Of a DNA stretch of 64,000 bases, positions 5,306-44,681 are shown piece after piece (position 1 is the stretch's first letter; the number at the start of each line of letters is the position of its first letter). The translations under genes were made by a program, and so were the position numbers. The stretch is from Anderseniella sp. (GTDB lineage: Bacteria > Pseudomonadota > Alphaproteobacteria > Rhizobiales > Aestuariivirgaceae): the NCBI GenBank assembly GCA_030626025.1, contig DAOUPT010000011.1, forward strand, positions 1 to 64,000, given 5' to 3'. The notes beneath the pieces are model-generated. The model saw only the letters and a program-made list of their open reading frames with translations, did no database searches and was not told the origin of the DNA.

Positions 5306-5311
5306 CGCCTT

Positions 5312-6076: not shown

Positions 6077-6080
6077 AATT

Positions 6081-6485
6081 ATGAATGACATCAGCAGAAC
6101 AGAAGTTGGCGGCATTGCCAGTAACAAAGACAGCATCCGCCACGTCTTCATCCGCGATTTGCAATTGCGCGCCATGCTCGGGGTTTATGACAGCGAAAAG
6201 CTCGAACCCCAGCAGGTCATCGTCAATGTCGATCTTTCTGTGAAAGAGCACGGCGAGCCCCTTGATGATGACATTCAAAATGTGGTTTCATACGAGCACG
6301 TTGTGAATCATGTTAAAGAGCTGATTGCCGAGGGCCATGTGCATCTGGTTGAAACGCTGGCCGAAATGATTGCCAACGAATGTTTAAAAAATCGCTGGGT
6401 GGTTGCTGTTCGGGTCCGTGTGGAAAAACCCGACATCATTCCCGAAGCTGTCAGTGTTGGTGTGGAGATTGAACGAACCAAGTGA
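6081..6485 (+). CDS. folB: Dihydroneopterin aldolase
   Basis: The 134-residue protein matches FolB. It has the early motif [17 protein letters not shown], the conserved Glu/Lys region around [11 protein letters not shown], and the C-terminal [14 protein letters not shown] segment with the catalytic lysine. FolB converts 7,8-dihydroneopterin to 6-hydroxymethyl-dihydropterin and glycolaldehyde in folate synthesis. The start is set at the ATG at 6081, four bases after the SDR stop. A longer in-frame extension upstream lies inside the SDR gene and lacks family similarity. Placement directly behind the FolM-like reductase suggests coupled tetrahydropterin/folate metabolism. Confidence 0.9.
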
Positions 6486-8379: not shown

Positions 8380-8433
8380 ATAAAATAATAAGTAAACTAA
8401 ATTTTTCGCCACCTATTAGTGGATTTAATTTTG

Positions 8434-9048: not shown

Positions 9049-9240
9049 AATTTTAACCTGACCGGGGTTGAGATAACGACGCAATTCTAACCCGCCTCTC
9101 GTTTAGCTTGGATCAGAAACGCAACGGTGCCAATTACTTAGAGGGGCATTTCGTATTCATTCTGAATCCGGATACTCAGGCGTTGCCTTCAAGGCAAATA
9201 TATTTTTCGTTGGTAACTGAGGCATATGCGTAAATAGAAC

Positions 9241-9963: not shown

Positions 9964-9994
9964 AATTTGGAATCACCTTAATTCGCATAATTTT

Positions 9995-10105
9995 TACAAT
10001 ACCGAAATCGCCCTAGCTGGCTTATGGATTGCCACTATCATTACCCTATACACCGGCTACGACTACTTCCGCGTTGGCATTTTGCACCTGGCCAACGAAG
10101 AATAA
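9995..10105 (+). pseudogene. Duplicated 3' end of pgsA (displaced fragment)
   Basis: These 111 bp align without gaps to the last 111 bp of pgsA (8938-9048, offset 1057). I count 15 mismatches, about 86% identity. Most differences are at third codon positions: the encoded 36 residues differ from PgsA at four sites, all conservative, and both copies end in a stop (TGA in pgsA, TAA here). The fragment has no start or body. Together with the real pgsA end it brackets the Sel1 gene, as expected when a foreign segment carrying its own pgsA 3' end recombined at this spot. Confidence 0.9.
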
Positions 10106-10145
10106 CAACCAGCAACTTGCCCTTTCAACTTGGCCCCAAACAGGC

Positions 10146-10166
10146 TATGAATCTTATCGATTCATA
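10146..10166. promoter_or_regulatory. Short inverted repeat upstream of the DUF2853 gene
   Basis: An 8-bp perfect inverted repeat (TATGAATC ... GATTCATA, 5-nt loop) lies about 30 bp before the DUF2853 start. It could be an operator or a 5' leader hairpin. Only the symmetry is seen; no regulator is implied. Confidence 0.4.
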
Positions 10167-10194
10167 TCACAACCAAAATTTAGGGGACAATCCA

Positions 10195-10536
10195 ATGAGT
10201 AAAAGAGACGATCTAATTGCAAAATATGCAGCCGACCTGAAAGACAAATGCGGTATCACACCAGACATGGACCTGCTTACAAAAGTAACAATCGGCTGTG
10301 GTCCAGCTATTTATAATGACGATGCCTCAACCGTTTCAGGCACAGACAAAGCAGAACTTGAAACAGTCAAAAACAATTTCCTGATCAAAAAACTTGGTCT
10401 TGCCGACAGCCCGGACCTTGATGCCGCCATCGACAGCTGCATGGAAACCTACGGCCGTTCAAACCGCAACAAATACCGCGCCGTCGTATACTACATGCTG
10501 GCTACTCACTTCAAAAAACAAGCCATTTACGGCTAA
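10195..10536 (+). CDS. DUF2853 family protein
   Basis: The 113-residue acidic protein matches the DUF2853 family, with an N-terminal helical segment (DDLIAKYAADLKDKCG) and a conserved C-terminal YRAVVYYMLATHF. No function is known. The ATG at 10195 is selected because AGGGGA lies about eight bases upstream and because sequence further upstream in this frame only reads through the pgsA fragment out of frame. It is the first intact gene after the Sel1 insert, followed by a hairpin at 10551-10587. Confidence 0.8.
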   Translation: MSKRDDLIAKYAADLKDKCGITPDMDLLTKVTIGCGPAIYNDDASTVSGTDKAELETVKNNFLIKKLGLADSPDLDAAIDSCMETYGRSNRNKYRAVVYYMLATHFKKQAIYG

Positions 10537-10550
10537 GCGAACTTAATTCG

Positions 10551-10587
10551 GGGACAATCGCTGCTGGTATTGCTGGCAGATTGTCCC
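10551..10587. terminator. Hairpin after the DUF2853 gene
   Basis: GGGACAATC and GATTGTCCC form a perfect 9-bp stem with a 19-nt loop starting 14 bp after the stop codon. No T-tract follows, so it may be a factor-dependent or weak terminator. The left arm resembles the GGGGACAATC around the ribosome-binding site of the same gene. Confidence 0.4.
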
Positions 10588-10666
10588 TGATAGCAATTCC
10601 TGATGGAAATCAAGAAACCCTCCGTATTATCTGCTATAATGCCTCCACAAAGCAGGAGAAAAAATT

Positions 10667-10870
10667 ATGGCTTTTGACCGACTTAAATCTGAAATTTCCA
10701 TGTTGCTGACCCAGATGCAAAATCAGCCCGAGGATAAATGGGAATTGCATGAGATGTTGCTGGAAAAGCTCAACGAAATGCGCGGCCTCGGCCTTCCCCT
10801 CCCGCAGGATCTGGTCGAGTTGGAAAAAAAACTCAACGAAGAACTGATTGCAGCGAGCAAAGAAGCCTAG
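10667..10870 (+). CDS. Small conserved hypothetical protein (67 aa)
   Basis: The 67-residue protein is helical and charged, with a leucine-rich amphipathic pattern (MLLTQMQ ... ELHEMLLEKLNEM ... LVELEKKLNEELI) suggesting a short coiled coil. A good ribosome-binding site (CAGGAG) sits about eight bases before the ATG. Similar small proteins occur in alphaproteobacteria, but I cannot assign a function. The stop codon coincides with the left edge of a dispersed repeat. Confidence 0.65.
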   Translation: MAFDRLKSEISMLLTQMQNQPEDKWELHEMLLEKLNEMRGLGLPLPQDLVELEKKLNEELIAASKEA

Positions 10871-11100
10871 GGCCTGTGCCGCTGCTGTCCGGTTTAACCG
10901 ATCACCTCACAATTGTCATTCCCGCCTGCGCGGGAATGACATGGTTGGGTTTTTGTACAACTGTTGCGTTTGCCATCCCAGACAGCAAAACTTGCAAATT
11001 ACATAGTAAGTCCGACAACTTACCTACAATCAGAAATTTTAAACTGGACAGTAGCAGACTTGTCTCGCTGATGAGGGATACAGGGTCGTGAAGCCGACTG
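10865..11100. repeat. Dispersed repeat region with a REP-like palindrome
   Basis: The 340-bp gap before the multicopper oxidase holds no gene. It begins with GCCTAGGGCCT at the stop of the preceding gene, contains a perfect palindrome at 10915-10940 (GTCATTCCCGC-CTGC-GCGGGAATGAC) and ends with a TGATGAGGGATACAGGGTCG-type segment. The same opening and closing segments recur at 13391-13505. Palindromes of this kind are common dispersed repeats in proteobacteria and can also end transcription. Confidence 0.6.
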
Positions 11101-11210
11101 GGCACGGCAGGTTTTAAATGTGGTTTTTCAATAATTTCTCTTGAGGCTCCAGTTGCCGGAAGGTCTATCATTCACCTTCAGAATTTGTTCAAATCATTGA
11201 GGTGATCAAA

Positions 11211-12710
11211 ATGCAGCGACGTGTGTTTATTCAAGCTTTATTGGCCGGGGTTTCTACAGCGGTGATGTTACCGTTTTCAAAATTGCCTGCAGCAGCCCAG
11301 ACAAACCAGCTCACGCCCCTGCCAATCCCAGAACTCATGCGCGGCGAGCTCAAAGACGGGGTTCGGGTCTATAATCTCAATATGCAACGCGGCACACATG
11401 AATTTTTTGCCGGTGTAAAAACCCCAACGCTAGGCATAAATGCCTCTTATCTCGGCTCCACCCTGAAGATGCGGGCCGGTGAAAAAATCCGCTTGAATGT
11501 CACCAACAATATTGGTGAAACCACCACGTTGCACTGGCACGGTCTGCATTTGCCGGCCAAAGCCGATGGCGGCCCACATCAGGTGATTGAGCCCGGCAAA
11601 ACATGGTCGCCTGAGTTTAAAGTCATTCAGGAAGCTGCAACCTTCTGGTACCACTCGCACATGCATGAAAAAACCGGCGAGCAGGTTTGGCGCGGACTGG
11701 CCGGGGTGATCATTGTTGAAGATAACAAAACCAACGCCCTGAACCTGCCGAACCAGTACGGCGTTGATGACATTCCTGTCGTGTTACAGGAACGCCAGTT
11801 TAGCCGCGATGGTGGCCTTTACTATGGCAATTCCAGACATAATATGATGATGGGCATGAGTGGCGATGTGCCGGTGGTCAATGGTGCCGTCGCACCGGTG
11901 TTTACCGCAAAAACCCAGAAAATCCGGCTGCGCATTCTCAACGGTTCAAACGCCAGTTTTTACAATCTCGGCTTTGACGATAATCGAAAATTCTTGCAGA
12001 TTGGCAGCGACGGAAGCCTGTTACCCGAAAGCTTTGAAACCACACGTCTGGAACTTGGGCCAGGCGAACGGGCGGAAATTATTGTCGATGTCAGCGATGG
12101 CAAGCAGACTGTTCTCGCCAGCTACGGCGACACCGGAACAAGCCCTATGGGCCGCGGCATGATGATGGGGCGTGGCATGATGATGGGCGGTGGCGGTAGT
12201 TCACAATTTGAATTTTTGCTGATTAAGCCTGAAGGCACCTTGACCGCATCTGCCGAAGTACCACAAAAACTGGTCTCCCTTGATCGCTTGTCAGCCAAAG
12301 ATGCCAACAAAACCCGGCGGTTCAATCTTGAAATGACCATGGGCCCAATGATGATGATGGGACTGGGCACGCCTTTTACCATTAATGGCAAAGCCATGGA
12401 CATGAGACGTATTGATGAGGTGATCAAACTGGGCGACACAGAAATATGGCAGATCCATAACAGCTCTGCCCTGCCCCATCCGTTCCACATTCACGATATC
12501 CAGTTCCAGATTCTCGACCGCAACGGCACCCCTCCCGGTCCCGGTGAACGTGGCCTGAAAGATACGGTGACCGTTAATTCCGGTGAAACGGTGCGGATTA
12601 TTGCCAAATTTGAAGACTACGCCGACGACAAAAGACCCTTCATGTACCACTGCCATATTCTCGAACACGAAGATGCTGGCATGATGGGACAGTTCACGGT
12701 GGTTGCCTAA
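11211..12710 (+). CDS. Multicopper oxidase, CueO-like, Tat-exported
   Basis: The product (499 residues from the ATG at 11211) starts with a twin-arginine signal (RRVFIQALLAG ... AAAQ), so it folds in the cytoplasm and is exported by Tat. All four copper-binding motifs are present: HWHG, WYHSHMH, HPFHIHD, and the C-terminal YHCHILEHEDAGMM, which supplies the type 1 copper Cys, His and axial Met. A methionine-rich insert (MGRGMMMGRGMMMGGGG) precedes the third domain, as in CueO, where such segments bind Cu(I). The likely role is periplasmic cuprous oxidase activity in copper tolerance. It is followed by a MarR gene. No copper ATPase or CueR is in the window. Confidence 0.93.
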   Translation: MQRRVFIQALLAGVSTAVMLPFSKLPAAAQTNQLTPLPIPELMRGELKDGVRVYNLNMQRGTHEFFAGVKTPTLGINASYLGSTLKMRAGEKIRLNVTNNIGETTTLHWHGLHLPAKADGGPHQVIEPGKTWSPEFKVIQEAATFWYHSHMHEKTGEQVWRGLAGVIIVEDNKTNALNLPNQYGVDDIPVVLQERQFSRDGGLYYGNSRHNMMMGMSGDVPVVNGAVAPVFTAKTQKIRLRILNGSNASFYNLGFDDNRKFLQIGSDGSLLPESFETTRLELGPGERAEIIVDVSDGKQTVLASYGDTGTSPMGRGMMMGRGMMMGGGGSSQFEFLLIKPEGTLTASAEVPQKLVSLDRLSAKDANKTRRFNLEMTMGPMMMMGLGTPFTINGKAMDMRRIDEVIKLGDTEIWQIHNSSALPHPFHIHDIQFQILDRNGTPPGPGERGLKDTVTVNSGETVRIIAKFEDYADDKRPFMYHCHILEHEDAGMMGQFTVVA

Positions 12711-12844
12711 ATAACTACAGAAAGAATTGCAGAAAGAATTATAGGGTGATTTACCTTGAATTAAGCACCTTCTAACAGCCACTGGAAAAATACCGCCATC
12801 TGGTGTAGGTATTGACGCGAGTCGCTACATGAGAGGTTAGGTTA

Positions 12845-13399
12845 ATGGCAAAAAAGAAAACTAAAAAGCAAAACGAAAAGAAAATCTCGAACGAAAAAAA
12901 ACCCGCCGCCAAAACAGCAAAAAAGAGCGTAAAAGCAGTCAATGTCATATCAGACTTGGCCCGACTGGCCCGGTTGATGCGCTCAGCCGAACATGAAATT
13001 GGCTTGAACCCGGCTCAGTGGGAAGCCCTGCGGTTTTTATCACGCTGCAATGAAAACTCCAATTCACCCATCGCCCTGACTCGCTACCTGGGCGCCACCA
13101 AGGGCACCATATCGCAAACGGTTATCGCGCTCGTCAATAAAGGCCTGGTCAACAAAACCAACCGCGAAGGCGAACGCCGCTCGGTTGTCCTGACCCTGAC
13201 TGATGAAGGCCGTGAATTTCTGAAAGCCGACCCCTGGAAACGGGTTGAGCAGGCATTCAGAAAAACAGGTACGAAAAAGCAAAGAAAAACCGCCGCAACT
13301 TTGTCGGCCCTGCTCGATCAGGAACTCGAAGTCCGCCGCACCAACGGCGCCAGCGCCTGGCCATCTTCTGAATTTTTCGGCAAAGTGAAAAAGGCCTAG
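12845..13399 (+). CDS. MarR family transcriptional regulator with lysine-rich N-terminal tail
   Basis: Of 184 residues, the first ~35 are almost all Lys/Ala/Asn/Glu, a histone-H1-like basic tail. A winged-helix MarR domain follows (NPAQWEALRFLSRC, LGATKGTISQTVIALVNKGLVNKT, wing ERRSVVLTLTDEGREFL). MarR proteins are dimeric repressors that often sense phenolics, oxidants or metals. It lies 134 bp downstream of the multicopper oxidase on the same strand and has its own AGAGG ribosome-binding site, so it may or may not share that transcript. The basic tail is unusual for the family and may add nonspecific DNA binding. Confidence 0.85.
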   Translation: MAKKKTKKQNEKKISNEKKPAAKTAKKSVKAVNVISDLARLARLMRSAEHEIGLNPAQWEALRFLSRCNENSNSPIALTRYLGATKGTISQTVIALVNKGLVNKTNREGERRSVVLTLTDEGREFLKADPWKRVEQAFRKTGTKKQRKTAATLSALLDQELEVRRTNGASAWPSSEFFGKVKKA

Positions 13400-13525: not shown

Positions 13526-15145
13526 CTACTTCTTGCCATTCGACAAAAGCGCCGTGATCAAATTCTTGTCGCGGCTATAGACGTCTTTGCGGAAATTGAT
13601 CTGGCCGTCTTTATTGACCCACGCAGTCAGATAAGTAACATGTACCGGGATTTTGGTTTTCAACCGAACAATACGCCGCTTGCTCGAAGCTATCTGGTTT
13701 TTAATCCGCCCTTCGCTCCACCCCTGTGCTTTCAACAAAATCGCAGCAAGTTTAGTCGGGTGTTGAACCCTCACGCAGCCATGAGAAAAATAGCGGGTAT
13801 CCCGGTTAAACAGGCTTTTGGACGGGGTATCGTGAATATAGACATTAAATTTGTTGGGAAAAATAAACTTTATCCGGCCCAGCGCATTACCCTTTCCGGT
13901 GTCCTGACGAAGCCGGTAAGGAATCCGCGAAACCGTATTCCAGTTGACACTATAGGGATTGATTTCACCCCCAGCGGCCATAATACGGATGTTTTGACGT
14001 TTCAAATACCCCGGATCACGACGCAATTTGGGCAAATATTCCTTGTTGGCAATCGATGATGGCACGTTCCAGTAAGGATTGATCACCAGATATTCCATCT
14101 TGTCATCAAAAATCGGCGTTTTATGATACGGTTTGCCAACCACGATGCGGGCCACATGAATGGTTTTCTCACGCGTCGCCAGCGTATCAACCACCTTGAG
14201 ATATTGATCGGCCAGATTGACAAACACATAGCGCTTGCCAAGGTCATCTTTCATCCAGCGTCGCCGCTCGAGATTGATCACCATCTGTTTGATGCGGTGC
14301 GACAGCGGCACATTGAGAGCTTTAAGGGTATTGGGTCCAATAACCCCGTCATCGGCTGAACCATGACGAATCTGGAAGGCTTTTACCGCCGCAACCAGTG
14401 TCTCGTCATAAATTGTGCTATCAGGCGTTTCGTTGGTTTTCAGATCACCACTAGCCAGCAGGCGCTTTCTCAATACTGGAACCCGCGGATCATCCATACC
14501 GCTTTTGAGGGCTTTGCCTTTGGCAATTTGGGGCCATTCGCCATGGGCAACCATCTCGCGATACTGCCCGAGGGCTTTTTTCAACCGGTGATAACGCGGT
14601 GACTTCGACGCCAGCTTGGCGATATAAGGTTCTAAATCTTCAGCCTGCTCGGCCCCGTCAATTAACGTAACAGCCCCGGCCGAAAACGTTTTGATATGGA
14701 TACCACGATTGATCTTGGTAGGCTCCAACCGCCCTTTTGACAGATCAGTGGCAAAGGAGGAAAAAGCCAGCGACATCAGAATATCCAGCTCGCCAAGTTC
14801 TTCAGGATTAGTCGAGCCAATCCGTTCGGCAATCTCGCTGGTGTTGTAGAATTTCGGATCAAGCCCATGCTCATGCGCATTCTGCAAGGCTTTCAGCAGC
14901 GCCTTGCCTTTGCCTTTTACACCGGCATCCCGGGTCCAGACCGGCTTGAAGCTTCGGTCTTCGTAAAAGGTGAAAATCTGAAACAATCGCTGCTCTTCAA
15001 TCCCACCGTTAATATTGATCTGCCCTGATGTGACAAACTGCTTGATGCTGTCACCAACCGACTGATTATTTCCCGCGTAAAGTGGACCGGCAAACAACAA
15101 CAGCCAAAGGACAGTACTGATAACAAATTTTGACAAAATGCGCAT
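13526..15145 (-). CDS. L,D-transpeptidase (YcbB/LdtD type) with peptidoglycan-binding domain
   Basis: The 539-residue protein has a signal peptide (VISTVLWLLLFAGPLYAG), an N-terminal scaffold domain of the YcbB type, a PG_binding_1 segment (VKAFQIRHGSADDGVIGPNTLKALN) and a C-terminal YkuD catalytic domain. The catalytic motif HDTPSKSLF ... SHGCVRV (about residues 440-460) includes the nucleophilic Cys. Enzymes of this group form 3-3 (meso-DAP to meso-DAP) crosslinks in peptidoglycan and resist most beta-lactams. It faces the dispersed repeat at its 3' end and follows ilvE on the same strand after 77 bp. Confidence 0.92.
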   Translation of the reverse strand: MRILSKFVISTVLWLLLFAGPLYAGNNQSVGDSIKQFVTSGQININGGIEEQRLFQIFTFYEDRSFKPVWTRDAGVKGKGKALLKALQNAHEHGLDPKFYNTSEIAERIGSTNPEELGELDILMSLAFSSFATDLSKGRLEPTKINRGIHIKTFSAGAVTLIDGAEQAEDLEPYIAKLASKSPRYHRLKKALGQYREMVAHGEWPQIAKGKALKSGMDDPRVPVLRKRLLASGDLKTNETPDSTIYDETLVAAVKAFQIRHGSADDGVIGPNTLKALNVPLSHRIKQMVINLERRRWMKDDLGKRYVFVNLADQYLKVVDTLATREKTIHVARIVVGKPYHKTPIFDDKMEYLVINPYWNVPSSIANKEYLPKLRRDPGYLKRQNIRIMAAGGEINPYSVNWNTVSRIPYRLRQDTGKGNALGRIKFIFPNKFNVYIHDTPSKSLFNRDTRYFSHGCVRVQHPTKLAAILLKAQGWSEGRIKNQIASSKRRIVRLKTKIPVHVTYLTAWVNKDGQINFRKDVYSRDKNLITALLSNGKK

Positions 15146-34573: not shown

Positions 34574-35506
34574 ATGCTGCAGGTTTTTGGCTTGGTCGCC
34601 CCATTGTTCACAATGATCATTCTTGGCTACATCGCCGGGAAGCTGGCCAAACTTCCCATTGCAGGGCTGGCCTGGCTAAACTTTTTCGTTATATATCTGG
34701 CTCTGCCGGCACTGTTTTTCAAGCTGCTGTCCAAAATCAATCTGGCTGAATTCGTCAGTGTAAAATTTCTGTTCATCACCACCTACGCCACATTCATCAT
34801 CTTCATCCTGTCCTTTACCATCGCCGTCTGGCGCAGCAAGGGCGATATTGGCGCTGCGGCCATTCAGGGTTTTGCCGGGGCTTATGGCAATGTCGGCTAT
34901 ATGGGGCCGCCGCTGGCCCTGGCCGCCTTTGGCGCCCCGGCGATTGCCCCTGCCGCAATGATTTTCAGCCTCGACAACGCCCTGCATTTCATCCTCGCCC
35001 CGTCCCTGATGGCCCTGCGCAAGGGTCAAAAGCAGAACCCGTTCAAGCTGATGGGCAAAATCGTGTTGGCCATCCTCAGCCATCCCTTCATTCTTGCCAC
35101 CATCGCCGGCCTGACCGCTGCTGCAATGCAATTCATCCCGCCTGCCCCTGTCGATAAAGCTCTTGCCCTGCTGGCCGGAGCCGCTGCGCCTTGCGCTCTG
35201 TTCACCATGGGCGTCACCGCCGCGCTGCGCCCCCTCAAAACCGTTCCCGTAGAGTTAACCTGGTTGGTCCCGATAAAACTGCTCCTCCACCCGCTCCTGG
35301 TTTATGCCCTGCTGACATGGCTGGGTCCGTTCGATCCCCTCTACATAAAAACCGCCGTCCTTCTGGCCTCCCTCCCCGCCGCCACCAACGTCTTCGTCAT
35401 AGCCCAGCAATACAACATCTGGCAAGAACGAGCCTCAAGCGCCGTGGTGGTGTCAACCCTGGCCGCGATGGTGACGGTGACAATGGTGATTTATCTGCTG
35501 CGGTAG
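34574..35506 (+). CDS. AEC family (auxin efflux carrier-like) transporter
   Basis: The 310-residue membrane protein has ten predicted helices in two inverted halves and the family features MIILGYIAGKLAKLPIAGLAWLNFFVIYLALPALFF and FAGAYGNVGYMGPPLALAAFG. AEC proteins are secondary carriers, often for dicarboxylates or amino acids. AAGGAG precedes the ATG. The 3' end matters: its last bases recur perfectly at 37582-37625 and, diverged, at 42550-42636, marking this gene as the left anchor of an insertion slot. Confidence 0.9.
   Translation: MLQVFGLVAPLFTMIILGYIAGKLAKLPIAGLAWLNFFVIYLALPALFFKLLSKINLAEFVSVKFLFITTYATFIIFILSFTIAVWRSKGDIGAAAIQGFAGAYGNVGYMGPPLALAAFGAPAIAPAAMIFSLDNALHFILAPSLMALRKGQKQNPFKLMGKIVLAILSHPFILATIAGLTAAAMQFIPPAPVDKALALLAGAAAPCALFTMGVTAALRPLKTVPVELTWLVPIKLLLHPLLVYALLTWLGPFDPLYIKTAVLLASLPAATNVFVIAQQYNIWQERASSAVVVSTLAAMVTVTMVIYLLR
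35462..35505 (+). repeat. 44-bp direct repeat, copy 1 (3' end of the AEC gene)
   Basis: The last 44 bp of the AEC gene, up to the second base of its stop codon, recur without mismatch at 37582-37625. The two copies bracket the adenylate cyclase gene. Confidence 0.92.
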
Positions 35507-35570
35507 TAAAATCCAAATTGCCACGTTTACGATCATAACTTCTAACCACGCCCTTCGGCAGCAAGGAGCC

Positions 35571-35620
35571 TATAACCAACATTTTCGCCTCTATAGATTT
35601 TTAGTCGCTGGTTGGTTATA
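35571..35620. repeat. 10-bp inverted repeat ahead of the adenylate cyclase gene
   Basis: TATAACCAAC (35571-35580) and GTTGGTTATA (35611-35620) are perfect inverted arms 30 bp apart, ending 21 bp before the cyclase start. It may be an operator over the cyclase promoter or part of the mobile cargo boundary. No matching copy is seen after the gene. Confidence 0.5.
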
Positions 35621-35641
35621 CTGCCGTGCAGGAGGATGGAA

Positions 35642-37558
35642 ATGGAGCGGCGTCTAAGCGCCATATTTGCTGCTGATATGGTTGGCTATAGCCGACTAAT
35701 GGAAGCTGACGAGATCGGCACCATTCAACGGCAGAAGACCCATCGGGTCGAATTTATTGATCTCAAATTCAAAGAATTTCACGGGCGCATCGTCAAAGAG
35801 ATGGGCGATGGAATACTTGTCGAGTTTCCCAGTGTCGTTGAAGCAGTCCAATGCGCGGTCGCTATTCAACGAGAGATGGTGAACAGGGAAGCGGGTGTTT
35901 CCGAAAACCGGCGCATTGTATACCGGATTGGTATTAATCTCGGCGACATCGTCATTGAAGGCGACGATATATTTGGCGACGGTGTTAATATCGCAGCGCG
36001 TCTGGAACAAATTGCTGAGCCCGGAGGCATTTGCATCTCAGGCACCGCTTACGACCAGCTCAAATCCAATGTTAAAGTTGGGTATGAAGCCCTCGGTGAG
36101 GTACAGATTAAGAATATTCAACAGCCGGTTCGCGCTTATCGGGTTCTGACAGACCCTGATCAAGTGGGCGAGGTAATAGAAAAGAAACACACAGGTCAGA
36201 CAAACATCAGGCAATTTGCGGCAATCGTTGCAGTGTTGCTTGTTGCAATCGTCGCTGGTGGCGCATGGTGGTGGTCGTTACAATCAAATACCAACAGCTT
36301 GGTGTCGGCAAAGGATGGTGACACGGCTCAACAAAAAACTGCAAAACATTCACCTGCCCTGACAATGGATACTTCAAGCAAGCCCTCAATTGCCGTTTTG
36401 CCTTTTGATAATTTAAGCAATGATCCCCAGCAAGAATTTTTCAGTGATGGCATCACTGAAGACCTTATCACTGACCTGTCGCAGGTCTCTGGACTGTTCG
36501 TTATTGCCCGCAATACAGTTTTCACCTTCAAGGGCAGAGCACACGATATTCAACAAGTGGGAAACAAGCTTGGTGTGAAATATGTTCTGGAAGGAAGCGT
36601 GCGCAAAGTGGGTAATAGCGTGAGGATTAATGCGCAACTGATTGATGTGCAAAACGGCGGCCACATTTGGGCGCAACGTTATGATCGTAAACTTGCTGAT
36701 GTGTTTGCGTTACAGGATGAGGTTGTCCAGAAAATTGTTGCGGCACTGGCAATAACGTTGAAACCAACCGAGAAAAAACGACTTGCCCGCAAACAGAAAG
36801 TGCACCCGCAAGCCTATGTTCTTTTGTTACGTGGACTTGAACAATTGCGACGATTCTCTCGCGAAACAAATCTCGAAGCACGAGAATATTTTGAACGCGC
36901 CATCGCACTTGATCCGAAATTTACCCGTGCCTACTCTGCTCTGGCCCTCACCCATGCCCTGGACTTTGACCAGGATTGGAGCAATGACCTTAAAAGGTCG
37001 AACCTGAAGGCATTGAATATTGCCCAACAGGCCTTGAGCCTGGACAAAACAGTCAATCAAACATATTTCACACTTGCAATCATCTATCGGAATCTGAAAC
37101 GTCTGGATGATGCAACGGCTGCAGCAAAGAAAGCCATAGCCCTTGATCCCAATTATGCAGACGGGTTTGCAGGCCATGCAATAAACTTGAATTTTAATGG
37201 CCAACCTGAGAAGGGGCTGGTGGCAATCAGGCACGCGATCAAGCTCAACCCTGAAAAACCGTTTTTCTATATTTGGGTCATGGGGCAGTCGTATTACCTT
37301 CTCGGGCGTTATGCAGAAGCGGTAAAATTGTTTGAGGATGTAATGGTGAGCAATTCACAATTCCCATTGGTGCATAAAATGCTCGTCGTCACTTACAGTG
37401 AACTCGGGCAAATCGAGGATGCCGAATGGGCTCTCGAGGAATTGCTAACGCTGCTTCCCAATTTCACTGTTTCTCAGGAAATGGAGAATATTCCCTACAA
37501 AGACAAAACGGTTCTAAACCGTTACATCGAAGGATTTCGTAAAGCCGGAGCTAAATAA
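35642..37558 (+). CDS. Class III adenylate/guanylate cyclase with TolB-like and TPR domains
   Basis: The 638-residue protein starts with a class III cyclase domain. Metal and substrate residues are seen in AIFAADMVGYSRLM, VKEMGDGILVEF and RIGINLGDIVIEGDDIFGDGVNIAARLE. A transmembrane helix follows near residues 195-215 (AIVAVLLVAIVAGGAWWW), then a TolB-like/FlgO-like domain (SIAVLPFDNLSNDPQQEFFSDGITEDLITDLSQ) and C-terminal TPRs. This architecture is common and multicopy in rhizobia-like alphaproteobacteria. The ATG at 35642 has GGAGG seven bases upstream. Base use is more AT-rich than the AEC gene, and 44-bp direct repeats flank it, so it is probably an acquired cargo gene. Confidence 0.9.
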   Translation: MERRLSAIFAADMVGYSRLMEADEIGTIQRQKTHRVEFIDLKFKEFHGRIVKEMGDGILVEFPSVVEAVQCAVAIQREMVNREAGVSENRRIVYRIGINLGDIVIEGDDIFGDGVNIAARLEQIAEPGGICISGTAYDQLKSNVKVGYEALGEVQIKNIQQPVRAYRVLTDPDQVGEVIEKKHTGQTNIRQFAAIVAVLLVAIVAGGAWWWSLQSNTNSLVSAKDGDTAQQKTAKHSPALTMDTSSKPSIAVLPFDNLSNDPQQEFFSDGITEDLITDLSQVSGLFVIARNTVFTFKGRAHDIQQVGNKLGVKYVLEGSVRKVGNSVRINAQLIDVQNGGHIWAQRYDRKLADVFALQDEVVQKIVAALAITLKPTEKKRLARKQKVHPQAYVLLLRGLEQLRRFSRETNLEAREYFERAIALDPKFTRAYSALALTHALDFDQDWSNDLKRSNLKALNIAQQALSLDKTVNQTYFTLAIIYRNLKRLDDATAAAKKAIALDPNYADGFAGHAINLNFNGQPEKGLVAIRHAIKLNPEKPFFYIWVMGQSYYLLGRYAEAVKLFEDVMVSNSQFPLVHKMLVVTYSELGQIEDAEWALEELLTLLPNFTVSQEMENIPYKDKTVLNRYIEGFRKAGAK

Positions 37559-37581
37559 TTGATAACTATCAATCCAACTTA

Positions 37582-37625
37582 GCCGCGATGGTGACGGTGA
37601 CAATGGTGATTTATCTGCTGCGGTA
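37582..37625 (+). repeat. 44-bp direct repeat, copy 2 (orphan AEC 3' end)
   Basis: This segment is identical to 35462-35505 and would encode the last residues of the AEC protein (AAMVTVTMVIYLLR) in frame with a TAA stop. No upstream AEC body is present; homology stops just before it. It lies 23 bp after the cyclase stop. Confidence 0.92.
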
Positions 37626-37651
37626 ATAATCGGTGTGAAGAGTTTTAAAAT

Positions 37652-39220
37652 CTACACACCAATTAGAGTCCGCGCCGCACGCAATAAGACAACGGGGTCA
37701 AGGTCGGTTCGCGCGACCAACGGTGGCCGGTGGCCTTTTCCAGTCATCTCATGCACCGCATTCATTGCTGATCGGACAGAATATTCAACGGTAAAAACTG
37801 TGTCTCGTGGCATCTCGCAGTACTGCCCAAGCACCGCAAAATTTTCTGCCCCCTCAGGGCGCACCGCCGGACGGTCATCCAAAAGTCGAGGCATAAACTG
37901 GCTGGTTATATGAGGCATCCTGCAAGTGAAAACAATCGCTTTTTTAAGGGCTCCCTGCACCTTGTTATCCAACCTGAGTTGCCCTGCCAGTTCGACAAGA
38001 ATTTCGTCACCAGAGCATTCCCACATCGGTTTTTGAATAAAATCGCCCGGCCGGTCTCCGCGCAAACCATAGCCCCAGAACACATAGGTGCCATCTGCTT
38101 GATCTCTGAAGTGAGGTTGATGAAACATCACCACAGATAATATCCATCCGGAGTCGGCAAAGGTGACCAATCCGCCTGTACCGGTCGCATTACCCGTGAA
38201 CTCTTCCATGAAATCAAAGAACTCTGGTGACTGCATGGTCGCGGTAAATGACATCCATGTTGTTTTGTCGGTATCTTTGCAGAAGGCATCCGGATTCCCA
38301 AAGCCCGGATATTGTGCGCTCAATTTGCGCCAAAGGCTCCAGGCCCCGCCCGTGGTTTTTGGCAATGGCGGTGATTTAGAGTTAGATCCAGTCGTAGAGG
38401 CATCGGTCATCGACCCCAATGTCAGGTACACACGGTCTTGCGGCAAGACGGAAACGGGGTCAGTTCCTTCAAACAATAGCTTTGTGACGTTCCGCGCCTT
38501 TCCATTCTGGCTGATCTCGATATCGTTCACCCGTGCACCTGTCTCAAATTGTACGTTGCGGACCGATAGCCAATCAATGATCGGCGCAATGATGGAATCA
38601 TATTGATTATAGCGCGTCCTCAAGATGCCTTTGATCCGGCTAAAGCCTGGAACAAGGTGAATAAACCGCCTCAGATATCTTCGCATTTCAATCGCGGAGT
38701 GCCACGTTTGAAAAGAAAACATTGTGCTCCACATTACCCAGAAATTGGTGTCAAAAAATTCTTTTGAAAAGCAACGGTAAATTGTCTTGCGCTGCAATGC
38801 TCGCTCCGGGCGCAAGATCAGCCGATTAATATCCATTATGTCCTTCGCGCTCAGTCCCAGTGCATTATCGGCCTTCTTGCCACCCCGCACCAAGCGGCAG
38901 TTAGATGAACCAGGCACGATTTTGTTAAAGGCAAAAATATCCTCCTTGACCGACTGTTCCGGGTTGTCAGGCGATGGGATCGTGTCCAACAGATCAAAAG
39001 TGCAGGCAAAGTGTTCTTCAAATATCCGCCCGCCGCGCACAAGATAACCATCTGTCGACCCACCTGAACCATCAAGGCTGCCACCAAGCAGGTCCAATTG
39101 CTCAAATATCTTGATGTTTTGACCGGGAACTTCGCAGTCGCGAACAAGAAATACCGCAGCAGCCAGGGAGGCAATGCCGCCTCCTACAAGATAGTGCATT
39201 CCGATGTTTGCATCTGGCAT
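37652..39220 (-). CDS. ohyA: Oleate hydratase (myosin-cross-reactive antigen family)
   Basis: The 522-residue flavoprotein matches fatty acid double-bond hydratases. It has the FAD motif YLVGGGIASLAAAVFLVRDC, IFEQLDLLGGSLDGSG, the RGGRIFEEHFACTFDLL segment with the catalytic Glu region, ECSGDEILVELAGQL, and FAVLGQYCEMPRDTVFTVEYSVRSAM near the end. It adds water to the cis-9 bond of oleate or other unsaturated fatty acids, giving 10-hydroxy acids. The start at 39220 has GAGGAG nine bases upstream. It lies inside the AEC-spt insertion slot, divergent from a TetR/acyl-CoA ligase/enoyl-CoA hydratase operon, so it may be part of one fatty-acid detoxification or modification module. Confidence 0.93.
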   Translation of the reverse strand: MPDANIGMHYLVGGGIASLAAAVFLVRDCEVPGQNIKIFEQLDLLGGSLDGSGGSTDGYLVRGGRIFEEHFACTFDLLDTIPSPDNPEQSVKEDIFAFNKIVPGSSNCRLVRGGKKADNALGLSAKDIMDINRLILRPERALQRKTIYRCFSKEFFDTNFWVMWSTMFSFQTWHSAIEMRRYLRRFIHLVPGFSRIKGILRTRYNQYDSIIAPIIDWLSVRNVQFETGARVNDIEISQNGKARNVTKLLFEGTDPVSVLPQDRVYLTLGSMTDASTTGSNSKSPPLPKTTGGAWSLWRKLSAQYPGFGNPDAFCKDTDKTTWMSFTATMQSPEFFDFMEEFTGNATGTGGLVTFADSGWILSVVMFHQPHFRDQADGTYVFWGYGLRGDRPGDFIQKPMWECSGDEILVELAGQLRLDNKVQGALKKAIVFTCRMPHITSQFMPRLLDDRPAVRPEGAENFAVLGQYCEMPRDTVFTVEYSVRSAMNAVHEMTGKGHRPPLVARTDLDPVVLLRAARTLIGV

Positions 39221-39225
39221 CAGTC

Positions 39226-39275
39226 GGTGCTCCTCTAGATGTACTCCTTCAAGATATACTCCTTCAAGCCTGTCA
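39226..39275 (-). repeat. Tandem repeat of ribosome-binding-site-like sequence upstream of ohyA
   Basis: Read on the minus strand, CTTGAAGGAGTA occurs twice 15 bp apart, followed by CTAGAGGAGCAC just before the ohyA start. The result is three Shine-Dalgarno-like GGAG cores in about 45 bp. An upstream in-frame TTG or ATG would translate it as repeated LEGV units. It may be simple slippage duplication of the translation initiation region. Confidence 0.5.
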
Positions 39276-39561
39276 GTTTTTCGCAAGCAGAGCATTGATC
39301 TGTATTAAGCAGTCAATACTCAAAATATCATCTGGGTTTAGAATATGATCACAGGGATCGCTGGCAAATTTTGCCAAATAACCTGATGTTTCTTCTGAGA
39401 TAAAGATCGCGCGCCGTTTACTATGGAGCGGCGGGAACCAAAGCAATCCCTGAATCAAGACACTTGGAAAACTCAGTGCCTGTCACGACAAACTCAGACA
39501 ACATTTAAATACGGGAACCTCACGACACGCTGTTTCAAGTGCATGAACACCACATAATTTA

Positions 39562-39603
39562 TTGACAAAACACACAAATATGAAAATGATGTCATAATCA
39601 TAT
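39562..39603 (+). promoter_or_regulatory. Promoter and palindromic operator of the TetR operon
   Basis: TTGACA at 39562-39567 is followed, 17 bp later, by AATGAT (39585-39590), a plausible -35/-10 pair. An imperfect palindrome covers the -10 box at 39578-39603 (ATATGA ... TCATAT with inner TGA-TG-TCA; ten of thirteen positions symmetric). It ends 11 bp before the TetR start, the usual place for a TetR autorepression site. The remainder of the 394-bp gap between ohyA and tetR shows no gene. Confidence 0.6.
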
Positions 39604-39614
39604 CAGGAAAAGAC

Positions 39615-40289
39615 ATGAAGCCCGCTAACCATTTGGAAAATCATCAAAGGTTTAATTTCGGACAAACCTTGCTCTTTGAGGCAAAAACCCGGTTGAAGCG
39701 TGATCGAACACAGGCAGAAATTTACAATGCCGGGTACCGCCTGCTTAGCCGCATTCCGCTGTCATCATTAAAGGTATCAGATATTTGTCAGGAAGCTGGC
39801 ATTGCCCATGGCACATTTTATATTTACTTCGCCAACCGGCGCGCTTTTGTTGCAAGCTTGTTGCTTCATTTCGTTGACTACCTGCAAGCGGCAATGCATC
39901 AAGCATCACAATCAGCTGAAACAGACAGCGTACGCAACACGATGTCTGCGTATTATCACCTGTTTGAACAAAACACAGGCATGATGAAGTGCCTGATTAA
40001 TGATCTCGAAGATTACCCCAACTCTCGGGAAGCTTTCCAGAGGCTCAATCGACAATGGGCAACAACCATTGTCACTTCAAGGGAGAAGGAGTTGGCCCGG
40101 TCAGGCAGAGCCGGCAAAATATCGCGCCAAGAACTTTATCGCCGTGCTTACGCGCTAGGTGGTATGGTCGACCAGTATCTCTACGCACTTCTGATCGGTC
40201 GTGATCAATCACTAAATAGCGTTTCGCAAGACCAGCAAGCCGTGATTGAAACGCTTTCACTTATCTGGAAACGAGGGATGGCCGAATGA
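39615..40289 (+). CDS. TetR/AcrR family transcriptional regulator
   Basis: The 224-residue protein has an N-terminal TetR helix-turn-helix with DRTQAEIYNAGYRLLSR and LKVSDICQEAGIAHGTFYIYFANRRAF, followed by a helical ligand domain. Its stop overlaps the start of the acyl-CoA ligase gene (ATGA at 40286). It likely represses its own operon through the palindrome at 39578-39603, and perhaps the divergent ohyA. Inducers of this kind of operon are often acyl-CoAs, which fits the neighbours but is inferred. Confidence 0.88.
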   Translation: MKPANHLENHQRFNFGQTLLFEAKTRLKRDRTQAEIYNAGYRLLSRIPLSSLKVSDICQEAGIAHGTFYIYFANRRAFVASLLLHFVDYLQAAMHQASQSAETDSVRNTMSAYYHLFEQNTGMMKCLINDLEDYPNSREAFQRLNRQWATTIVTSREKELARSGRAGKISRQELYRRAYALGGMVDQYLYALLIGRDQSLNSVSQDQQAVIETLSLIWKRGMAE

Positions 40290-41590
40290 CTATTTTAGAA
40301 AACGCGTTATCAGTGACAGCCGCTAAGCTGCTTTCGCACCAGCAAGCAGCATGGGCAGTACAGCGGAATTATGTCTTGCAAAATTCGGCGTTTTACAAGT
40401 CGCTGTGGAATGGAAAAAAACCGCCAAATGACCTGTGCGATCTCCCTGAACTCCCCTTGTCAGATAAATCTCAATTGAGGGTTTCACAAGAACGTCATCC
40501 ACCCTTTGGCAATTATCTCGGCGCAAAGCGCGAAGTTGTAAACCGCCTTCATCGCACCTCTGGCACCACCGGACAGGCAATGAATTTGGGTTTGTCTGCC
40601 CGAGATTGTGAAATCACCGAAATCATCGGGGCCCGTTGTCAGTCCGCTGCCGGTCTTGGCCCTGGGCACACGGTTGTTCATTGCTTGAATTACCAGATGT
40701 GGATGGGCGGGGTAACCGATCACATGACGCTGGAAAGGACCGGCGCAACGGTTGTGCCTTTCGGTGTCGGTGGCACTAAACGCCTCATTCGCACCATTCG
40801 CGATATCGGGATCAATGCTATTTCGTGTACACCGTCTTACCCGGCGGTTCTCGAGCGTGTGCTGCAAGAACACTTCCCCGACCTGCACCCCGCAGATCTC
40901 GGATTGAAACTCGGGTTGTTTGGCGGTGAACCAGGCCTTGATGATCCCACCTTGCGGCAACGATTGCAGGAAACCTGGGGAATGGAGCCACGCAACGCAA
41001 ACTATGGTGTATCAGATGTTTTCTGCAATTTTGCTGCCCAGTGTGAACATGATACCCGACTGCATTTTCTGGGTGCAGATGTGTTGTATCCAGAATTGAT
41101 CAATCCTGAAACAGAGGCCGCCATCCCCATTATCGCTGGCCAAAAGGGAGAACTGGTGCTCACACACCTCACCCGTGATTGTCAACCTTTGGTGCGGTTT
41201 CGAACCGGAGACATAATTGCTGTTGACGAGAAAGACCCTTGCAAATGTGGCCGCAATGGCATGCGTTTTCGGGTTGTTGGACGCAGCGACGACATGGTGG
41301 TGATACGCGGCCTCAACCTGTTCCCGACAATGGTTGCAGCAGTTATCAGCCAGTTCAAGGAATTATCCGGTGATTATCGCATCGTTCTTGATCACCGCCC
41401 GCCGTATGATTTTCTGCCAGTCCATATCGAACTGGCCAAAGGACAGGTCGCCGGAGACGAAATCGGGCAAGCTGTTGAACAGGCAATCAAATCCAGATTG
41501 GGGGCAACAGCGCAGGTCACCGTCCTGCGCCAAGAAAGTTTCCCCGTCACAGAGGGCAAAACCATACGAGTTGTGAGGACATATAAATGA
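40286..41590 (+). CDS. Phenylacetate-CoA ligase-like AMP-forming acyl/aryl-CoA ligase
   Basis: The 434-residue protein has the PaaK-type architecture of the adenylate-forming family: LHRTSGTTGQAMNLGLSARD (P-loop motif), NANYGVSDVFCNFAAQCE, ELVLTHLTRDCQPLVRFRTGDI and VVGRSDDMVVIRGLNLFPTMV. Such enzymes activate aryl or short/medium carboxylates to CoA thioesters. The next gene is an enoyl-CoA hydratase overlapping by four bases, so activation is followed by hydration of a 2-enoyl-CoA. The substrate is not phenylacetate by necessity; no other paa genes are present. Confidence 0.85.
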   Translation: MTILENALSVTAAKLLSHQQAAWAVQRNYVLQNSAFYKSLWNGKKPPNDLCDLPELPLSDKSQLRVSQERHPPFGNYLGAKREVVNRLHRTSGTTGQAMNLGLSARDCEITEIIGARCQSAAGLGPGHTVVHCLNYQMWMGGVTDHMTLERTGATVVPFGVGGTKRLIRTIRDIGINAISCTPSYPAVLERVLQEHFPDLHPADLGLKLGLFGGEPGLDDPTLRQRLQETWGMEPRNANYGVSDVFCNFAAQCEHDTRLHFLGADVLYPELINPETEAAIPIIAGQKGELVLTHLTRDCQPLVRFRTGDIIAVDEKDPCKCGRNGMRFRVVGRSDDMVVIRGLNLFPTMVAAVISQFKELSGDYRIVLDHRPPYDFLPVHIELAKGQVAGDEIGQAVEQAIKSRLGATAQVTVLRQESFPVTEGKTIRVVRTYK

Positions 41591-42348
41591 ATACATTTGA
41601 GTATGACACCATAAAGAGTGAAATCAATTCCCATGGGGTTCGAACAATTGCCCTGAACCGACCCGATAGTCTAAATGCCATGAACCGGCAGTTGATTGAT
41701 GATGTGGCGCGCGCATTTGACGACGCAAATGCCGACCCGGCCACAAAGGTTATTTTGTTTACCGGAACCGGCCGGGCTTTTTGTGCCGGTGACGACCGCC
41801 GTGAACATGTTCATCCTGAAACCGAAGCTGAGGCCCGCAATCTTGTAGACGCTATCCAGCGGGCAACCCAATCAATTGTTATGGGAGCAAAGCCGGTGGT
41901 TGGCGCAATAAATGGCTGGGCAGTTGGCGGCGGTTTCGAATGGGCCATCAATTGTGATTTTCCAATTTGGGCACAAAGCGCCAAAGGTTTCTTTCCCGAA
42001 GTATCACTGAATTTGTTTGTCACCGGGGCAGTCACATCGCTTCTTCCAGCATTGGTCGGACTAAACAAAGCACGCGAAATGCTATTGCTCGGCGATCGCT
42101 ACAGCGCCCCCGAGCTTCTGGAAATTGGCTTAGCCTGGCGCGTTGTCAGCGATGATGATTTGATGGATGAAGCACACCAAGTCGCAAAGCGGCTAAGCCA
42201 ACTGCCGATATTATCTGTACGAGCCATGAAACGGGTATTGAACCAATCTGCATCAGGCAATCTGAATTTAGCACTTCATCTGGAAACCGAAGCAACGATT
42301 GCCGGATTTCTGGACCCCGAAACCACCATTCGACTTAAGGAATTTTAG
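41587..42348 (+). CDS. Enoyl-CoA hydratase/isomerase family protein
   Basis: The 253-residue crotonase-fold protein keeps both catalytic glutamates at the expected places: GGGFEWAINCDF (first Glu) and FFPEVSLNLF (second Glu). The oxyanion-hole segments are FCAGDD and NGWAVGGGFE. It probably hydrates a 2-enoyl-CoA made after activation by the upstream ligase. It is the last gene of the TetR operon. The pseudogene scar of spt and AEC 3' ends begins 40 bp after its stop. Confidence 0.88.
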   Translation: MNTFEYDTIKSEINSHGVRTIALNRPDSLNAMNRQLIDDVARAFDDANADPATKVILFTGTGRAFCAGDDRREHVHPETEAEARNLVDAIQRATQSIVMGAKPVVGAINGWAVGGGFEWAINCDFPIWAQSAKGFFPEVSLNLFVTGAVTSLLPALVGLNKAREMLLLGDRYSAPELLEIGLAWRVVSDDDLMDEAHQVAKRLSQLPILSVRAMKRVLNQSASGNLNLALHLETEATIAGFLDPETTIRLKEF

Positions 42349-42388
42349 CGGAAAAGATCCGGCAAAACCACTAATCCCAAGCCCTCCC

Positions 42389-42552
42389 TACCCTGCCTTA
42401 GCCACCCCATGCCCAGCCGCAACCACCTGTCCGAACAACTCGATAATCCGGTCGATTTTATCATCAAAATACGCCGTAGAGACTGGGCAACGTAACAGGC
42501 ATATTTTGTTTGGGGTACTGGGGGACGGCTATGTTTACGTACACACCTGCAC
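42389..42552 (-). pseudogene. Orphan 3' end of spt (serine palmitoyltransferase), diverged copy
   Basis: This segment aligns with the spt 3' end (43474 onward) at roughly 83% over the first 120 bp, with a 2-bp indel further in. Read on the minus strand it encodes the SPT C-terminus almost unchanged (DRIIELFGQVVAAGHGVAKAG and a stop), so the differences are mostly synonymous. The frame breaks where it joins the AEC fragment. It is not expressed as a protein in any obvious way and marks an old recombination junction. Confidence 0.88.
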
Positions 42553-42636
42553 CAATGTTTTCGCAATACAACGTCTGGCAAGAACGAGCCTCAAGCACCG
42601 TGGTCATAACAACACTGGCGGCTATGGTGACCGTGC
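42550..42636 (+). pseudogene. Orphan 3' end of the AEC transporter gene, diverged copy
   Basis: This segment matches the AEC gene from about 35387, with an 11-bp deletion, then aligns without gap to 35407-35479 (offset 7156) with ten mismatches in 73 bp, about 86% identity. The reading frame QYNVWQERASSTVV is conserved with mainly conservative changes. It is fused directly to the spt fragment on its left, with the two gene interiors facing each other. This arrangement is the opposite of the genomic AEC-to-spt order. Confidence 0.88.
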
Positions 42637-42685
42637 GAGGGTAAAGCTGCCCTTCACTTAATGGCTCTTAAAGCATCATTCCCGG

Positions 42686-43306
42686 TCATCGAGTTGTGGC
42701 CATCAATACGCTGCCACCAATCATAAATGTCCCGCCTGTATATCCGATACGTTTTCTGGCCGACTTACTTTGGAAAAATTGGCGTGTGCGCCCGGCAACT
42801 AAAGCATACCCCGTGAGCAGAACAGCAACTACAATTGTAGAGGTTATCGTCAATATGACCATTTGTAGAGCCATATCTCTGGCTGGATCAATGAATTGCG
42901 CGAGAAAGGCCATGTAGAAAATAATGGCCTTTGGATTGAGAACAGCGGTTACAGCCCCGGCCCAAAGACTTCCCCAAGCGGATGAGGTCTGATGAGCTTC
43001 GGCAAAATAGCCGTTATCGTTTCGAGCTTCAGCGATTTGGCGACACCCAAGATATGCTAAGTAAATTACGCCAGCCCATTTAACGATCTGAAACAGGAGC
43101 GCAGACGCGGCGAGTATGGTTCCAACGCCCATAAATGATAGCCCCATTAACACGACGCCACCTACTATATCGCCAGCGATGCACATCATGGCGGCTTTCT
43201 TTCCTCTGGTCAGAGACTGCCCAACAACAAGCAGAACACTCGGACCGGGAATAAGGGTCAATACAATTCATGCTGTCGCAAATGCGAACCATGATTCTAA
43301 ACTCAT
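42686..43306 (-). pseudogene. LysE/RhtB family amino acid exporter with premature stop at codon 13
   Basis: From the ATG at 43306 the frame encodes MSLESWFAFATA, then a TGA (43270-43268), then continues as IVLTLIPGPSVLLVVGQSL, the standard LysE N-terminus. The remaining 191 codons are open and keep family features (AGAVTAVLNPKAIIFYMAFLAQFID, several membrane helices). A single nonsense change thus interrupts the first helix. Restart at the in-frame TTG at 43261 would drop part of that helix, so I call it a recent pseudogene, unless the stop is read through. It lies in the insertion slot just before spt. Confidence 0.8.
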
Positions 43307-43472
43307 AAGAGTGGTTTTCCAATTGAATTGTGCTCGGAGATTAGCAGACCATAGGTGAATTATAATTTTTATTATACCAAATAATCTCCATCACAGGTTT
43401 GTAACCTGAAACGGAATGTTCATGCCTACCTACTGATTTTACCCAACCTCCATGGCACAACACATCGCACTT

Positions 43473-44681
43473 CTACCCCGCTTTGGCCACCCCATGCCCG
43501 GCTGCAACCACCTGTCCGAACAGCTCGGTAATCCGATCGATCTCATCATTAGAATGGGCCGTAGAGACTGAGCAGCGCAGAAGGCATATTTTATTGGGGG
43601 TGCCGGGTGGCAGGGCTATGTTTACGTATACACCGGCATCCAGCAAGGCGTTCCACATGGCAATCGTTGTTGGTTCATCAGGGCAGCGCACGGCGATAAT
43701 CGGGCTGACTTCGTCACAGCCCATCTCCAGACCAAGTGCCTTGAAACCGTTGAACAACCGGGTTGAGTTTTCCTGCAACCGGTCACGGCGCTCGGGCTCG
43801 CGGGCCAGCAATTTGATCGCTTCCAGCGCCGTTGCCACCGAGGCCGGTGATGGCGAGGCGGTAAACATATAGGGTCGTGAATGATGGCGGATGGCCTCAA
43901 AATACGGGTGATTTCCCGCCCCGAAACCACCAATGGCGCCGACGCTTTTCGAGAACGTGCCAACCACAAAATCAGCATGTTCATAAAGCCCTGCTTCATC
44001 GGCAAGCCCGCGCCCGTTCGGCCCCAGCACGCCAAATGAATGAGCCTCATCCATCATCAATTGAAAACCGTATTGTTTTTTGACTTCAACAAAATCAGCC
44101 ATCGGTGCCCGATCGCCCATCATCGAATAAATGCCTTCCAGGACCACCAGTTTGCCACCTTCACTATCTTTTGAACGGGCCAGCCGCTTGGCCAGATCAT
44201 CGGCATCATTGTGGCGAAAGCGTACCAGACGGGCACCAGACAAAGTACAACCGTCATAAATTGAAGAGTGAGAATCCGCATCCAGATAAATGGTATCTTT
44301 CGGCCCGGCCACCCCGGCAATCATGCCCAGATTGGCCGCATAGCCGGTGGAAAAAACGATGCAGTGTTCAAGATCAAGGAACGCCGCCAGTTCAGCTTCC
44401 AGTTCCTTGTGCAAACCATAGGTGCCGTTGGCAATCCGCGAACCGGTCGTGCCGGTGCCAAACTCATCCAGCGCTTTTTTACCCGCTGCGATACAAGCCT
44501 TATCAAAGGTCACACCCATATAATTGTTGGTACCGGCCAGAATGGTTTCCTTACCATTGATCAGGCCGCGGGTCGGTGACAGAATTTTCTCATTGACCAG
44601 ACCAATGGCGTCCGACCCCGCCTCCAGCATCGCCTCATAACGTGCCATCAAAGGCTCAAATTTTTTCAGCAAGTCTACCAT
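43473..44681 (-). CDS. spt: Serine palmitoyltransferase
   Basis: The 402-residue PLP enzyme belongs to the alpha-oxoamine synthase family. It has GTNNYMGVTFDK, GTGTTGSRIANGTYGLHKELE, DEAHSFGVLGPNGRG (Asp211 binds the PLP ring nitrogen), and GTFSKSVGAIGG with the PLP lysine at about 245. Relatives include KBL and BioF. The SPT call rests on the gene order acyl-AMP ligase, SDR, acyl carrier protein, SPT, which is the core bacterial sphingolipid cluster known from Caulobacter. SPT condenses serine with an acyl thioester to 3-ketosphinganine. The 3-bp gap to the ACP gene suggests acyl-ACP as donor. Its 3' end is duplicated at 42389-42552. Confidence 0.88.
   Translation of the reverse strand: MVDLLKKFEPLMARYEAMLEAGSDAIGLVNEKILSPTRGLINGKETILAGTNNYMGVTFDKACIAAGKKALDEFGTGTTGSRIANGTYGLHKELEAELAAFLDLEHCIVFSTGYAANLGMIAGVAGPKDTIYLDADSHSSIYDGCTLSGARLVRFRHNDADDLAKRLARSKDSEGGKLVVLEGIYSMMGDRAPMADFVEVKKQYGFQLMMDEAHSFGVLGPNGRGLADEAGLYEHADFVVGTFSKSVGAIGGFGAGNHPYFEAIRHHSRPYMFTASPSPASVATALEAIKLLAREPERRDRLQENSTRLFNGFKALGLEMGCDEVSPIIAVRCPDEPTTIAMWNALLDAGVYVNIALPPGTPNKICLLRCSVSTAHSNDEIDRITELFGQVVAAGHGVAKAG

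Follow-up and report, generated by a model that had tools for sequence, protein, structure and literature searches.

Duplicated gene ends between convergent AEC and spt genes of an Anderseniella genome, most likely left by ordinary recombination with homologous DNA of relatives

In a plasmid-based lacZ assay in Escherichia coli, linear DNA homologous to its target at one end gave recombinants of which 56 of 60 had duplicated part of the homologous gene on the flanks of the insert. These duplications were attributed to trimming, recircularisation and a single crossover, whereas true homology-facilitated illegitimate recombination (HFIR) gave deletions (PMC3240628). For the T6SS arrays of Vibrio, HFIR and serial additions with displaced 3' ends have been proposed (PMC5361080). 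Small variable segments that involve no integrase are common in species-level comparisons; about 10-18% of them are flanked by direct repeats, and illegitimate recombination is invoked (PMC2884548).

The locus described here lies in the window, which is the whole 64,000-nucleotide stretch of Anderseniella sp. DNA that was analysed, and its genome (G000) was compared with three genus mates (G001, G002 and G003). As with recircularised linear DNA in E. coli, partial gene duplications flank the inserts (48-166 bp here; 109-950 bp in the sequenced E. coli recombinants), free of any integrase; the E. coli system is a laboratory plasmid assay, whereas the present case is natural, repeated at one site and cargo-bearing, in an alphaproteobacterium (PMC3240628). 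As in the Vibrio cholerae T6SS loci, successive additions at a conserved gene would have moved older cargo and 3' ends outward; there, however, the anchor is placed upstream of the module, with replacement of the resident effector, while here the boundary gene remains whole and the cargo genes have metabolic or regulatory roles (PMC5361080). The small variable segments are likewise small integrase-free insertions, some with direct repeats, but they come from within-species comparisons of E. coli, S. aureus and S. pyogenes, and gene-end scars at convergent pairs are not singled out in the available portion of the report (PMC2884548). The AEC-spt locus is a clear natural example of an already described process, and its gene-end copies were most likely left by ordinary homologous recombination with DNA of relatives, not by a new capture system. 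The initial annotation had proposed a new, integrase-free mode of gene capture; this claim to novelty does not hold, as both such duplications and serial 3'-end displacement are already described (PMC3240628, PMC5361080, PMC2884548).

The features of the AEC-spt slot are as follows.
34574-35506, + strand: AEC-type transporter, left boundary gene (Pfam Mem_trans, 9.1e-28)
35642-37558, + strand: cargo 1, cyc, a class III adenylate/guanylate cyclase with TPRs (Pfam)
37582-37629, + strand: displaced AEC 3' end, 47/48 identical, stop codon changed
37652-39295, - strand: cargo 2a, oleate hydratase (ohyA, MCRA family; Pfam MCRA, 7.4e-186)
39615-42348, + strand: cargo 2b, tetR - AMP-ligase - enoyl-CoA hydratase operon (Pfam)
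42388-42551, - strand: displaced spt 3' end, 82.5% identical, two 1-bp deletions
42552-42635, + strand: displaced AEC 3' part, fused directly to the spt fragment, 86% identical, 11-bp deletion
42686-43318, - strand: cargo 3, LysE-type transporter, likely pseudogene (Pfam LysE, 9.5e-31; in-frame stop at codon 13)
43473-44681, - strand: spt-like (AONS-family) aminotransferase, right boundary gene (Pfam Aminotran_1_2)

The order is thus AEC, cyclase, AEC 3' end, oleate hydratase with the tetR/ligase/hydratase operon, fused spt 3' and AEC 3' ends, lysE and spt. This is the arrangement of cargos and 3' fragments given in the initial annotation, and the Pfam assignments agree with its cargo identities. 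They also place its lysE-like cargo in the LysE family, but the gene is probably not intact: counted from the likely ATG, a stop lies in frame at codon 13, and the sequence indicates that lysE is probably decaying. The absence of an integrase or transposase, also noted earlier, agrees with the Pfam scan of the cargo genes between AEC and spt, in which neither was matched.

Alignment and a self-BLAST of the window bear out that the 3' end of AEC is present three times and that of spt twice. The first AEC copy (37582-37629) differs from the gene at a single position, where the stop TAG has become TAA. The second (42563-42635) is 86% identical over 73 bp and reaches left to about 42552 across the 11-bp deletion. 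The spt 3' end (43473-43638) recurs at 42388-42551 with 82.5% identity over 166 aligned bp, including the two 1-bp deletions. With E-values of 1.9e-41, 1.5e-17 and 6e-16 in the self-BLAST, these repeats are real and well above chance. Over the whole genome, the AEC 3' end has no further copies beyond the two in the slot, and spt has a single second match that is not a paralogue, at 42391-42525. Assembly artefact was rejected as the main explanation: the diverged repeats occupy different contexts on a 77-kb contig, and the fragments are not simple assembly duplicates because they differ from their genes. Direct repeats of a homologous segment flank the inserts (AEC 3' end at 35462/37582 and 35407/42563; spt 3' end at 42388/43473), as they do at a second locus in the window (pgsA 3' end at 8938/9995). 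Near 42551-42556, the interior of spt joins the interior of AEC directly, which is the joint expected from fusing the two ends of an incoming fragment; it is not diagnostic, as other models can yield the same joint.

The slot is empty in one genus mate. In G002, AEC and spt are convergent and about 12 bp apart, without cargo, and because this junction is tight and empty, the ~8 kb in the window represents extra DNA in a genuine filled slot. In G001, about 360 bp separate AEC from spt, and none of the genes of this array are found there. AEC is 65-67% identical in these two genomes and adjoins spt in both. Among the loci examined, the AEC-spt adjacency occurs only in this genome and in these two of the three genus mates, and it was not found outside the genus among 60 relatives compared by spt and 71 loci compared by AEC; spt adjoins epimerase and fadD-like genes throughout the family. 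Upstream of AEC is a nucleotidyltransferase gene in the window, in contrast to an oxidoreductase gene in G002 and likewise in G001; the region has therefore been rearranged more widely, and the ancestral state of the wider AEC region is uncertain.

Relatives of the cargo are patchily distributed. In the three genus mates, no relatives were found for cyc at a cut of 1e-80, for the AMP-ligase at a cut of 1e-60 or for the oleate hydratase at the cut-off used. The cyclase, the ligase and the oleate hydratase have only patchy relatives, all in other genera, with those of cyc sharing 39-51% identity. In other genera of the family, the ligase and the hydratase are kept together as a conserved pair, located elsewhere in the genome (ligase 59-72%, hydratase 46-79%). 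Alternative cargos, which the initial annotation had expected in the slot of relatives, were not found in any of them; contig C465 of G001, looked at for such cargo, begins within AEC and then runs for the ~360 bp up to spt. The ~360-bp insert on this contig (L136, 308-582) has at its borders a 42-bp inverted repeat (97.6%), which belongs to the ATCTTCGGACTTGATCCGAAGAT palindrome type. AEC 3' ends are located at the contig ends of both C101 (L135) and C465 (L136) of G001 and are 97.6% identical over 255 bp, with C101 stopping 18 bp past the end of AEC. These two AEC 3' ends may represent variants between strains or a further duplication of the AEC end in the slot.

A second slot is present in the window between pgsA and ykuD, with the following features.
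8419-9048, + strand: pgsA-like left boundary gene (Pfam CDP-OH_P_transf)
9241-9963, + strand: cargo, Sel1-repeat protein, 37.6% GC
9995-10105, + strand: displaced pgsA 3' end with 87% identity, reading frame open and stop codon intact
10195-13399, no single strand assigned: remaining insert, with a DUF2853 gene, a small ORF, a multicopper oxidase and an ORF at 12845-13399
13526-15145, - strand: YkuD L,D-transpeptidase, right boundary gene, convergent to pgsA

Comparison of the window with itself identified the pgsA 3' end (8938-9046) again at 9995-10105, so that the two copies flank the low-GC Sel1-repeat gene. The spacing between pgsA and ykuD is 4.5 kb in the window versus about 4 bp from stop to stop in G002, and G003 has a small moaD-like gene at this position. 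The DUF2853 gene, the multicopper oxidase and the further ORF (10195-13399) have relatives at unlinked loci in genus mates, which suggests that this set was relocated rather than gained from afar. Positions 9112-9170 of the window are a degraded piece of a MITE-like, ~105-bp dispersed repeat with inverted ends (TAGAGCGTTTC ... GAAATGCTCTA). The genome holds eight or more copies of the repeat (L285-L291); several fall precisely between two convergent genes and lie at a stop codon or overlap one. It was considered as a possible anchor, given its position after pgsA, and rejected, since the AEC-spt slot contains no copy.

The account that we favour, held as a whole with moderate confidence, is that the compact convergent AEC-spt pair took in DNA fragments of related bacteria repeatedly. 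The anchor would be RecA-type homologous recombination within the final 50-170 bp of a boundary gene. In this scheme, most likely, a linear fragment consisting of an AEC 3' end, cargo and, in some cases, an spt 3' end would have its ends joined to form a circle, and the circle would enter by one crossover in the shared gene end, of either AEC or spt. Such a crossover would rebuild a complete AEC beside the new cargo and leave the old or duplicate 3' end in place as a scar; the fusion of spt 3' and AEC 3' ends would then correspond to the joined ends of the incoming fragment. At a tight junction of 4-12 bp (~12 bp for AEC-spt), insertions that spare both genes would nearly always duplicate a gene end, and selection would enrich such scars because the junction leaves hardly any other gene-sparing insertion. 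By this reasoning cyc would be the newest addition, because its AEC scar is near-perfect, and the spt side the oldest, because the scars there have decayed and lysE is broken. At 48 bp, the AEC scar beside cyc offers little length for RecA anchoring, and the spt-AEC joint counts against the account, as the homology between the fragment ends, scored against present-day alleles, is only 2-3 nt and an 11-bp deletion is nearby.

Gene content points to plausible sources of relatives' fragments. Contig C81 (L282) of this genome carries, at 1018-13248, an RcGTA-like gene transfer agent (GTA) cluster with genes for portal, capsid, gp10, DUF2460, baseplate hub and GTA_TIM, and ComEC is also encoded in the genome. 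ComEC uptake delivers single strands and fits circularisation poorly.

An alternative route to nearly the same product, which we consider possible though unlikely, is HFIR: a linear (single-stranded) fragment would pair with AEC at one end, and its other end would be joined illegitimately to the recipient AEC slightly upstream, without a circle. The ComEC and GTA genes would be in keeping with this route, which is known in competent bacteria and has been proposed for the serial displacement of 3' ends in the Vibrio T6SS arrays (PMC5361080; PMC2884548). However, HFIR typically deletes recipient DNA by the insert (PMC3240628). At the present locus, by contrast, gene ends have been duplicated and neither boundary gene is truncated. 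Since the duplications in E. coli arose by the single-crossover route and HFIR gave deletions, the former appears to be the better precedent for this locus (PMC3240628). Under HFIR, homology would be confined to one side of the insert; what this genome itself shows is gene-end homology. The microhomology at the spt-AEC joint, 2-3 nt when judged against present-day alleles, appears weak next to the 3-10 bp expected under HFIR.

If the fragments were local duplicates instead of foreign alleles, a ~265-bp segment comprising the AEC 3' end, the gap and the spt 3' end would first have been duplicated in tandem, and the cargos would have been inserted later by unrelated events while the fragments decayed. 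Duplication of 265 bp in an ancestor resembling G002 would produce precisely the observed order of spt 3' and AEC 3' ends, and the indels in the fragments are typical of decay. The differences between fragments and genes bear directly on this alternative. Compared in frame with their genes, the spt fragment has 14 synonymous and 6 nonsynonymous differences and the diverged AEC fragment 6 and 4, giving 20:10 (33% nonsynonymous) for the two pooled and 31:14 (31%) when pgsA is included; the 48-bp AEC copy, being nearly identical to the gene, is uninformative about alleles. In a codon simulation in which the fragment decays neutrally and the gene is under selection (kappa 3, omega 0.1, equal branch times), ~55% nonsynonymous differences are expected, in excess of the 33% observed for AEC and spt (P=0.004; P=0.008 for spt alone), while the data do not reject divergence between two functional alleles (P ~0.10 for AEC and spt); the AEC and spt test rests on only ~200 bp. 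In-place duplication with neutral decay is disfavoured because the differences are rich in synonymous changes. Such a duplication also leaves the separate 48-bp AEC copy and the pgsA case unexplained, and we regard it as improbable. The diverged spt and AEC fragments and the pgsA fragment look like alleles from relatives, so that the two copies of each gene end would be donor and recipient alleles, and a mixture, in which a foreign allele subsequently decayed, also fits and is consistent with the indels. None of the three genus mates is consistently the closest to the fragments, which offer too little sequence for polarisation. The earlier proposal that relatives' DNA was added by homologous recombination at convergent gene ends is therefore partly supported, by the slot itself (12-bp junction in G002; ~360 bp with no gene of the array in G001), the synonymous-rich fragments, the lack of an integrase match and the recurrence at a second slot; the order of the additions we only infer.

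Classically, att sites are recognised as direct repeats at the 3' ends of genes, through which the target gene is restored. Remains of an integrative element that used gene 3' ends as att sites, with the integrase lost or acting in trans, would fit the 48-bp repeat flanking cyc taken alone but are very improbable, as the Pfam scan found no recombinase among the cargo genes, the AEC, spt and pgsA repeats differ in length and share no core, and neither the spt-AEC fusion nor a displaced 5' end elsewhere in the genome (see below) is att-like. Comparison of the pgsA, AEC and spt-AEC breakpoints side by side revealed no shared sequence that could serve as a common att core.

Read as recombination with relatives' DNA, the locus preserves an unusually legible natural history of gene gain without an integrase: its scars indicate which gene served as anchor, how old the additions are relative to one another and that they are likely foreign. 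If a duplicated gene end is what it costs to enter a tight convergent junction, such duplicates could provide a genome-wide marker with which to find and order gains of this kind at sites that no longer retain a mobile element. A broader proposition is that, in this lineage, tight convergent pairs act as directional accretion slots, where relatives' fragments, possibly delivered by the resident GTA, are added again and again beside the same boundary gene and the arrays record the order of arrival, integrase-free. This is doubtful. The idea of tight convergent pairs as recurrent, ordered slots is perhaps worth pursuing.

Gene-end scars were surveyed in ~866 kb of slightly overlapping stretches of this genome and in 400 kb from two relatives of other genera. 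The ~866 kb contained one further convincing case, on contig C42 (L217, 868-1091 / 2274-2500), where the 5' end of a threonine dehydratase gene is displaced with 82% identity and an NADP-dependent oxidoreductase gene sits between it and the complete threonine dehydratase gene. This is likely a 5'-end case of a gene-end scar, and the restriction to gene 3' ends in the initial annotation was accordingly too narrow. The pgsA/ykuD slot and this 5'-end case indicate that the phenomenon is not specific to AEC and spt. From the 400 kb of the two other genera came about one candidate, consisting of 58 bp from the 3' end of a gene. This makes gene-end scars a general feature of low frequency, one that extends beyond 3' ends. 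The 58-bp sequence is on contig C11 (L237) of G005, from another genus of the family, where a 96.5% identical copy of the 3' end of a gene encoding 966 aa (3831-3888 / 4268-4325) lies ~440 bp downstream and is a possible gene-end scar.
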